A DNA stretch of 64,000 bases from Synechococcales cyanobacterium GL140_1_metabat_312 (lineage in GTDB: Bacteria > Cyanobacteriota > Cyanobacteriia > Leptolyngbyales > Leptolyngbyaceae): positions 1-64,000 of the forward strand of contig JANXWB010000086.1 of NCBI GenBank assembly GCA_025351345.1. Reading direction: 5' to 3'. Each line of letters begins with the position of its first letter. Positions within the stretch are counted from its first letter, which is position 1. A model generated the notes under the pieces. That model ran no database searches, was not told where the DNA came from, and saw only the letters and a list, made by a program, of their open reading frames with translations. The position numbers and the translations under genes are program-made. Shown here piece by piece: positions 37,897 to 39,689 of this stretch.

Positions 37897-38874
37897 TTAG
37901 GCGAGATGAAAGTGGCATTGGATCGATCGGGGCAGAGTATTGGTATCAACATTGGTATCCATATCGGTATTGCTATTGACGCATAGCGAGATTCCCATAA
38001 TGCTCAGCAATTCTCGTGCTAACAAAAGCCGAAATGATGGACTGAATTCCATGACGATCGGCGCTGGCTTAGTTGCTGATCGTTCACGTTCAGTCGCCAA
38101 GATCTCAGGTGTTAAGATCCCAGGCAATTGCAGTAATGAAGAATTCGGGTTAGTCAACACATTTAAAGTCTCTTGCCACTGTGCTTCGGGTAATTCATCT
38201 TGCAAGGTGAGCGTAATCTGTTTACCTTGAGTGCTGAGAGAAAGAATAATACTTCCTCCATCCATGGCGGCGATCGAGCGAGTGACGAGGATGGTGAGCG
38301 CCTGTTGCAAATAGGTTGGATCGGCTTGGATTAAAATTTCGCTGTCCACTATGGGGATCTGAAGCCGCAGATTACGATTGGCCGCAAGGTGACGGGTCAT
38401 AAAATAGACTTCTTGCAACACGCTGGCTAAATCGACTTCTGTTTTAGTAATATCCAGGCTACTGGACTGAAGGTTTGAGACTTTCAGCACTTCATCTAAT
38501 AAACCAATGAATTTGAGTGCTCCATCATGGGCAAAGCCAATATATTCCTTTTCTTCTTCAACATCGTCACAAAGCCCAGCTTGGATCATTTGCAGACTGC
38601 TGATTAAGGCATTCAAAGGCGATCGTAACTCGTGGGACGTTCGTGATAGGAAACTACCTTTAAATTGAGCTAAATCTAAGGCTGCATAGTAGGCGATTCG
38701 GCAATCTATTTGGACGATGGTCTCCGACCGACCTTTGGTCATCGGATTGGGCGATGGGATGGGATTAGGTGAACTTATAGGTTCTTTTTTAAGTGCTTTC
38801 TTCTCAGGTCGGCCACGTAGAGTAATCAACAATAATCCAATTCCAATTCCAGTTATGGTCGAAAACCAATCCAT
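37897..38874 (-). CDS. Degenerate histidine kinase-like protein
   Basis: 325 aa. An N-terminal TM segment (WFSTITGIGIGLLLITL) precedes a HisKA domain with an intact H-box (LSRTSHELRSPLNALISSLQ). The following ATPase-like region keeps secondary-structure hallmarks (ADPTYLQQALTILVTRSI) but lacks the N-box Asn, and the G-box Gly-rich loops are replaced (SFRLLLARELLSIMG where G-L-G-L is expected). I infer it cannot bind ATP normally and may be a phosphoacceptor or a dominant regulator of another kinase. No response regulator is adjacent. It reads away from ndhH by 52 nt on the same strand, upstream of it. Confidence 0.8.
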   Translation of the reverse strand: MDWFSTITGIGIGLLLITLRGRPEKKALKKEPISSPNPIPSPNPMTKGRSETIVQIDCRIAYYAALDLAQFKGSFLSRTSHELRSPLNALISSLQMIQAGLCDDVEEEKEYIGFAHDGALKFIGLLDEVLKVSNLQSSSLDITKTEVDLASVLQEVYFMTRHLAANRNLRLQIPIVDSEILIQADPTYLQQALTILVTRSIAAMDGGSIILSLSTQGKQITLTLQDELPEAQWQETLNVLTNPNSSLLQLPGILTPEILATERERSATKPAPIVMEFSPSFRLLLARELLSIMGISLCVNSNTDMDTNVDTNTLPRSIQCHFHLA

Positions 38875-38970
38875 ACGATCCTCAGTTAGGGGTAAGCAGC
38901 AAATATGATCAAATATGATTATTTGTATGATTTAGGGCGAAAATCGATCGCAGTTCTGATAAATACTATC

Positions 38971-38998
38971 TTGACAAATTTTTGTGAAATTTGATACT
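38971..38998 (+). promoter_or_regulatory. Possible promoter of the HTH/GrpE-like gene
   Basis: TTGACA (38971-38976) is a perfect -35, followed after 16 bases by GATACT (38993-38998), a 4-of-6 match to the -10. The inferred transcript start falls at or a few bases after the ATG at 39003, implying a leaderless or downstream start if this promoter is real. Confidence 0.35.
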
Positions 38999-39002
38999 AA
39001 CT

Positions 39003-39689
39003 ATGGCCGAATCGAATTACAAATTAGCCCAAAACGTGACGCACAATGCTGTCAGTCAAGCACTTCGCCAACTCATGACGGATTGCGACATCGATACATT
39101 TAAAGTACTGAGTCTCCGATCGCAGGTTTCTCTCGGGGCAATAAAGCGACTCCAGCAGGGTCATATTCTGACGATGCAGGTGCAGACGGTGAGGAAGATT
39201 GCGGAAGTTCTACAAATTTCGGTGGATGATTTGGTGCGATCGCTGACGGCTGAATCGATCCCTATTCCACAGTCCACAGCCTCAAATTCCGAGTTACAGC
39301 AAGAGTACGATCGCTTAGCTCAGACGCTTAAACATCAAGAAACAACGTGTCGTGAGACCTTTCAGCACGAAGCTCTCCAAACCCTAGAACCTTGGTTAAT
39401 TCAATGGTCTGCTGCTGCCCACGCTGCTCAAACTAATCCGCAATTGATGGCTAGCAAACTGCTGCCGCTGCTCAGCCCGATCGATCGACTTCTAATGGAA
39501 TGGGGAGTTAGTCCGATCGGGACTATTGGCGAAGAGTGTGACTATGATCCCGCGCTACATCATGGAATGAATGGTGATTTTCAATTGGGCGATCGGATTC
39601 GGATTCGATTTTTGGGATACCGCTATCAAAATTCAACTGGAAACCACGTTTTACATCGGGCCAAGGTGATGCGGCTGGATTCACTCTGA
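39003..39689 (+). CDS. HTH domain fused to GrpE-like domain
   Basis: About 228 aa from the ATG at 39003. The N-terminal region (about 20-85) is an XRE-like helix-turn-helix: TFKVLSLRSQVSLGAIKRL, then TVRKIAEVLQISVDDLVRSL. A short coiled coil (ELQQEYDRLAQTLKHQE) follows. The C-terminal 90 residues match GrpE: LLMEWGVSPIGTIGEECDYD, then PALHHGMNG (GrpE D-P-x-x-H-H-A), then GYRYQNSTGNHVLHRAKV. GrpE is the nucleotide exchange factor of DnaK. Fusion to a DNA-binding domain suggests coupling of chaperone state to transcription, but activity is unproven. Confidence 0.8.
   Translation: MAESNYKLAQNVTHNAVSQALRQLMTDCDIDTFKVLSLRSQVSLGAIKRLQQGHILTMQVQTVRKIAEVLQISVDDLVRSLTAESIPIPQSTASNSELQQEYDRLAQTLKHQETTCRETFQHEALQTLEPWLIQWSAAAHAAQTNPQLMASKLLPLLSPIDRLLMEWGVSPIGTIGEECDYDPALHHGMNGDFQLGDRIRIRFLGYRYQNSTGNHVLHRAKVMRLDSL

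Follow-up and report, generated by a model that had tools for sequence, protein, structure and literature searches.

Repressors tied to chaperones are represented by the HspR-DnaK and HrcA-GroEL pairs, and to our knowledge there is no named XRE family with a GrpE-derived effector domain; a literature search of limited scope for such a family found none. In Escherichia coli, the DnaJ-like protein CbpA belongs to the DnaK system and has DNA-binding activity (PMC4063869). For GrpE, the residues needed for contact with DnaK have been reported in Mycobacterium tuberculosis, where a joint mutant of R64, N71, R73, K74, R75 and R78 in the long helix loses DnaK binding and mutants of the bundle and of the beta domain retain it (PMC10803776). 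Here, we describe a cyanobacterial gene that places a GrpE-like domain behind a helix-turn-helix (HTH), and we consider what its family might do.

The gene lies in a stretch of 64,000 nucleotides, referred to as the window, from the first letter of which all window coordinates are counted (Table 1). A sequence-only reading of this DNA had described an XRE-like HTH fused to a GrpE-like C terminus, and both parts were borne out. The Pfam model HTH_26, which scored 20 bits against the window protein alone and thus fell slightly below the family cut-off of 22, was matched by 30 of 30 aligned relatives with a best E-value of 3.2e-14. The DPALHH and GYRY motifs named in that reading were also found, and they contain the beta-domain signatures D-P-x-x-H and G-Y at residues 182-187 and 205-206. 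These signatures recur in the family: of 122 members, 103 have [FY]D[PS]..H and 111 have GY. An alignment of relatives revealed that the window protein is family-like in sequence except for one hairpin insert. The predicted architecture of the protein family, an XRE-type HTH head followed by a GrpE-like C-terminal domain, was therefore confirmed by profile and motif comparison.

Table 1. Features of the HTH/GrpE-like gene and its upstream region, in window coordinates
Feature	Coordinates	Strand	Remarks
Weak FurC/PerR-box-like stretch	38912..38936	+	7.3 bits (2% of shuffles score at least this high); no significance left once multiple tests are allowed for
Promoter-like TTGACA-16-GATACT	38971..38998	+	TTGACA at 38971, 16-bp spacer, GATACT ends at 38998
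19-bp palindrome CAAATTTTTGTGAAATTTG	38975..38993	.	Overlaps ends of both promoter hexamers
Gene for HTH/GrpE-like protein	39003..39689	+	228 aa, ATG start, stop codon within coordinates
XRE/Cro-C1-type helix-turn-helix, residues 21-78	39063..39236	+	Pfam HTH_26, E 8.3e-4
Short helix, residues 97-124 (EYDRL...)	39291..39374	+	Replaces GrpE long helix; without DnaK-contact motif
Helical-bundle region, residues 125-168	39375..39506	+	Highest family conservation, mean column identity 0.70
GrpE-like beta domain, residues 169-225	39507..39677	+	DPALHH 39546-39563, GYRY 39615-39626

The relationship of the C-terminal part to GrpE was apparent from family profiles. With the window protein as the only query, the Pfam GrpE model (PF01025) gave no match at E<=10. 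Given that GrpE was invisible from the single sequence, its assignment from two motifs could have been due to chance, but the family evidence shows otherwise. The same model was matched by 26 of 30 relatives at E<=1 (best 7.4e-8), and in two genomes the score at the place of the family gene exceeded the Pfam cut-off of 25.8 (G224, 32.7 bits; G073, 32.6 bits). A search of the PDB with the family profile recovered Geobacillus GrpE (4ani) with an E-value of 1.8e-4; the match covered positions 79-212 of the 215 in the profile. Comparison of the family with 22 canonical cyanobacterial GrpE proteins by hhalign gave an E-value of 1.3e-4 and a probability of 54%, which became 3.9e-5 and 70% when the 122 C-terminal parts were used; control comparisons with reversed alignments gave E-values of 0.3-0.4. 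Judged by these profiles, the kinship to GrpE is remote but real. The canonical GrpE of the window genome is a separate gene on a different contig.

Structure prediction was of low confidence. The full-length model was poor (pLDDT 53.5), with GrpE at Foldseek rank 18 (E 1.4). For a model of the C-terminal part only (pLDDT 55.1), ranks 1-5 in a Foldseek search of the PDB were all GrpE or GrpEL1, with a best E-value of only 0.038, and in VIA-align the best GrpE comparison (Z 3.2, 4.2 Å over 89 residues) was tied by unrelated entries. Mean column identity across the family was 0.70 in the bundle, 0.65 in the beta domain, 0.60 in the coil and 0.54 in the HTH. The higher conservation of bundle and beta domain, compared with the HTH, indicates that the GrpE-like part is more than a scaffold and has kept a job of its own.

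The region that corresponds to the DnaK-contact patch was found to be greatly altered. In the 22 canonical cyanobacterial GrpE proteins, R..ADF.N.R.R is invariant, and the long-helix motif N-[FYL]-[RK]-[RK]-[RK] was found in none of the 122 HTH/GrpE relatives. When the alignment was anchored on Y-x-R-L, the window protein retained at most one of the six contact residues (R104). Anchored column counts comprise 85 of the 122 members, with the 37 that have no anchor excluded; given that the anchor itself requires Y-x-R-L, the R at the R64 position is present by construction in these 85 rows, and it is present in 90% of all 122. The R73 position holds R or K in 50 of the 85 anchored rows, and the positions of N71, K74, R75 and R78 are mostly occupied by Q, E, T or S. 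The hhalign comparison places a gap across the canonical DnaK-patch stretch. In three variants (L101-L103), the coil is absent and the HTH is joined nearly straight to the bundle, and in another (L098) the coil is shortened. Given the loss of the patch residues and the loss or shortening of the coil in these variants, the family is unlikely to act as an ordinary nucleotide exchange factor.

No chaperone genes were seen in the genetic surroundings. Within ∼4 kb of the gene, or to the contig end, none of the 122 loci yielded a DnaK or DnaJ gene in a motif scan run without a positive control, and phmmer revealed no canonical GrpE gene over the same distance. The sequence-only reading had suggested that a nucleotide exchange factor tied to DNA binding could link the load on DnaK to gene control, with heat-shock genes as the place to look. 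This suggestion is not supported: the patch motif was found in no relative, and the commonest same-strand neighbours are Dps and sulfiredoxin.

The family is widespread. Of 291 Cyanobacteriia genomes, 235 yielded relatives in a protein search, in which some matches were of partial length, and these represent 112 of 130 genera; no genome of one family with small genomes (f2) was among the matches listed. A plasmid search gave no match, and none of 102 pattern matches on viral contigs could be confirmed as a family member. The 122 loci used throughout comprise one member per genome (the window, its genus relative L002, 20 long-contig genomes and 100 more). They were picked from the higher-scoring listed matches, blind to neighbours, and some stop at a contig end. 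Proteins of a second cyanobacterial group (L086-L093, L099 and L100) carry the GrpE-like C-terminal part behind a hydrophobic N-terminal stretch that resembles a membrane anchor, without an HTH; one of these (L086) matched Pfam GrpE at E 4.8e-4, below the cut-off. In L097 (1373-2215, + strand), the GrpE-like part is preceded by an HTH as well as by a hydrophobic N-terminal stretch, and this type perhaps links the two groups. In one family outside Cyanobacteriia but within the same phylum (L094 and L095), the GrpE-like part lies behind an N-terminal region with no HTH match, which in L095 is coiled-coil-like.

Among the 122 loci, the commonest same-strand neighbours of the family gene were Dps and sulfiredoxin (srx). 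Dps proteins were identified by Pfam Ferritin matches above cut-off together with NCBIfam Dps models below cut-off. Sulfiredoxin was identified by a ParB_N match, by analogous Nostoc genes and by a GCHR motif, which we take to be a mark of this protein; no sulfiredoxin model was matched. Dps genes numbered 48, of which 33 lie upstream and 15 downstream, and were spread over 38 loci; srx was found in 32 loci, always upstream; every copy of either gene is on the same strand as the family gene. One or both are present in 47 loci, which by their genome labels span 14 families. Both occur in 23 loci, always in the order srx-dps-family gene, and srx without dps occurs in nine. In the 42 loci with srx or dps upstream, the gap is <=110 bp in 25 and <=300 bp in 36. 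The remaining 75 loci, including the window, have neither gene nearby. Other neighbours included PrxQ, 102-181 bp downstream in three loci outside the 47. A same-strand ferredoxin gene precedes the family gene in 20 loci, and 35 loci have a SpoIID/LytB-domain gene, for the most part upstream and on the opposite strand. Given that the gene often lies among peroxide-defence genes, and not among chaperone genes, it appears to belong to the control of oxidative stress.

A comparable arrangement is indicated by gene numbers in Nostoc sp. PCC 7120, where the number of all4144 is followed by those of all4145 (Dps) and asl4146 (SrxA), the same combination of genes that makes up the srx-dps clusters described here. 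In that strain, asl4146 and all4145 show a strong response to peroxide and head Table 2 of a report on that response, with values of 8.2 and 6.5 (PMC4518582), and all4144 has been labelled "probably a chaperon" with reference to STRING (PMC8147232). By gene position, all4144 would be the Nostoc 7120 member, or orthologue, of the family. A literature search of limited scope found no functional study of the family.

Analysis of the regions upstream of srx revealed a further common element. The dyad TCATA-N5-TATGA precedes srx in 23 of 32 srx-led clusters, compared with a maximum of three for any 5-base dyad in shuffled sequences, and a TTGCAA-17-TATGAT promoter overlapping the dyad can be picked out by eye. 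With a matrix derived from those 23 sites, the box was identified in 29 of the 32 srx-led clusters (the 23 included), in two of 10 dps-led clusters and in one of 80 stand-alone promoters (L189). The pattern TCATAAYGANTATGATT was present in 111 of the 291 genomes, mostly as a single site, and the reversed pattern in six, as counted from the listing. Thirty TCATAAYGANTATGATT sites were read, and 27 of them precede srx or dps within 1.5 kb; the family gene follows within 1.5 kb at 12. The published consensus for Anabaena FurC (PerR), of which srxA is a target, is CAAAATCATAACGACTTTG (PMC10406281), and it has TCATAACGA in common with the srx-promoter box. Given this match and the status of srxA as a FurC target, the box is most likely that of PerR, with the qualification that FurA also binds the srxA promoter (PMC4788461).

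The dyad was also considered as an operator of the family protein itself. This reading was dropped given the match to the FurC consensus, and also because the box precedes dps or srx at sites where the family gene is not within 1.5 kb. Moreover, the box occurs in two near-complete genomes (G035 and G120) in which the family gene was not found, so that it is most likely not the protein's own site. The family gene was present in 107 of 111 genomes with the site versus 128 of 180 without it (Fisher p 1e-8), as cross-listed by hand, an association not taken as evidence given that the genomes are related and that, among the four exceptions, G202 (E 2e-4) and G267 (E 1.6e-6) gave weak profile matches where a contig ends. 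A binomial figure for the adjacency of Dps was set aside as well, given the relatedness of the genomes and the gene numbers that it assumes. FurC/PerR-type boxes were also seen before other genes, named by eye: a ZIP-like metal transporter ORF in L266 (410-1183, − strand) and, in L242, one of the three read sites with neither srx nor dps behind it, between a closely adjoining, divergent thioredoxin-reductase-like ORF (100-1485, − strand) and a phosphatase-like ORF (1627-2949, + strand), the same downstream ORF being present in L243.

The window copy has no significant box of this type. The exact pattern was absent from the window genome and from two genus mates in a whole-genome scan, and a search of the window genome for sulfiredoxin, made without a positive control, gave no match. 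Two Dps genes lie elsewhere in this genome, one of which (locus L235, contig C25) is preceded by a palindrome, CATAGTCATTATGACTATG, that is FurC/PerR-box-like. The start codon of the window gene aligns with equivalent ATGs in the genus relatives L002 and L003. From the position of the promoter-like site, transcription would start at or near this ATG, as the sequence-only reading had suggested. The promoter with its perfect TTGACA is indeed present, and this hexamer is kept in both relatives; taken alone, the site is no better than chance, with one found versus 2.1 expected in shuffles. The palindrome within it is identical in L003, has its outer 6-bp arms kept in L002, and may be an autoregulatory operator of the protein; its arms (CAAATT-N7-AATTTG) occur at two places in the window genome.

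No operator common to stand-alone promoters could be identified in general. TTGCT-N-AGCAA, found in six of these promoters, was rejected as a candidate since it looks like a terminator of the preceding gene. In four genomes of one family (L134, L147, L151 and L163), the palindrome TCAGCAT-N9-ATGCTGA comes directly behind TACAAT, a -10-like hexamer, in the region ahead of the stand-alone gene. The four sequences are near-identical, and the candidate operators differ among clades, which leaves autoregulation a tentative proposal.

The reading that we favour, with moderate confidence, is that the family protein is a dimeric XRE regulator or a DNA-bound adaptor of the peroxide/iron response with a repurposed GrpE fold. 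The C-terminal domain descends from GrpE, minus the main helix patch that grips DnaK; it would hold the dimer together and carry a conserved surface for sensing or for a partner. The two HTH heads of the dimer would then bind a palindrome, and the protein would act as a regulator, probably an autorepressor, or as an adaptor on DNA, within a stress response commanded by PerR (FurC). The domains, their spread, the loss of the DnaK motif, the clustering with sulfiredoxin and Dps on one strand and the FurC/PerR-type box ahead of these clusters are observed; we infer the dimer, the DNA binding, the repression and the peroxide link of the window copy. Against a peroxide role stand the 75 of 122 loci without srx or dps, the single box among 80 stand-alone promoters, the recurrence of the ferredoxin and SpoIID/LytB-domain neighbours and, for the window, a box-like stretch that is not significant, a genome with no exact site and no sulfiredoxin match.

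Other readings give more weight to single lines of this evidence. The 48 Dps genes in 38 of the 122 loci, all on the same strand, would also suit a role in the nucleoid instead of gene-specific regulation, in which the protein would link Dps to DNA, or position it there, when cells are under oxidative stress; this is unlikely given the nine loci with srx alone and the 84 with no Dps nearby. Conservation raises another candidate, a DNA-tethered co-chaperone whose beta domain docks on a host DnaK, so that the state of the chaperone would govern binding to DNA, as with HspR/DnaK or, among J-proteins, CbpA. The beta-domain signatures are kept in most members, bundle and beta domain are the most conserved parts, GrpE structures take the first five PDB ranks for the low-confidence C-terminal model, and a DNA-binding co-chaperone of DnaK is already known in CbpA (PMC4063869). 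Such a role is nevertheless distinctly unlikely for a family that is missing the long-helix DnaK patch, that includes three variants without the coil and that has no chaperone gene in sight at 122 loci, with the canonical GrpE encoded elsewhere in the same genome.

An extended form of this proposal, improbable in our estimation, would have a GrpE-type co-chaperone with a DNA-binding head placed under PerR control with sulfiredoxin and Dps, using its beta domain alone to tie the state of a cyanobacterial DnaK to transcription or nucleoid packing in peroxide stress; if true, it would be the GrpE-side counterpart of CbpA. It is also highly improbable that the genus copy has drifted to a local role largely unrelated to peroxide, for example in controlling the adjoining leuC. 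The order ndhH, a divergent HisKA gene, family gene and leuC is found in all three genus members seen (the window, L002 and L105), and no terminator-like site was found ahead of leuC; however, leuC begins 148 bp downstream of the window gene, which makes co-transcription uncertain, and the window sequence follows the family apart from its hairpin insert. The divergent gene (37897-38874, − strand) encodes a HisKA domain and matched no other Pfam model, such as a kinase ATPase, at E<=0.001.

Under the favoured reading of a regulator or adaptor in the peroxide/iron response, a chaperone-cofactor fold would have been reused in a probable regulator, and such genes should not be read as encoding nucleotide exchange factors. 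A gene of most of the sampled Cyanobacteriia genomes (235 of 291) can now be placed by its commonest same-strand neighbours, Dps and sulfiredoxin behind a FurC/PerR-type box, and with this placement its role can be tested directly in Nostoc 7120.

In comparison with known systems, the family resembles GrpE (PF01025) in its C-terminal helical bundle and beta domain, in D-P-x-x-H and G-Y, and in a remote but significant profile match, and it differs from GrpE in having an N-terminal HTH, no long-helix DnaK patch and no dnaK neighbourhood that could be seen. With XRE/Cro-C1-type repressors (HTH_26) it has the N-terminal HTH in common, its effector domain being GrpE-derived. CbpA is a J-domain protein with an established link to DnaK, whereas contact of the present family with DnaK is hypothetical. 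HspR-DnaK and HrcA-GroEL recruit a chaperone, whereas here a domain like that of a co-chaperone is built into the protein, and the heat-shock setting was not seen. The parts are known, their combination was found described nowhere in a literature search of limited scope, and the setting moves from heat shock to peroxide defence.
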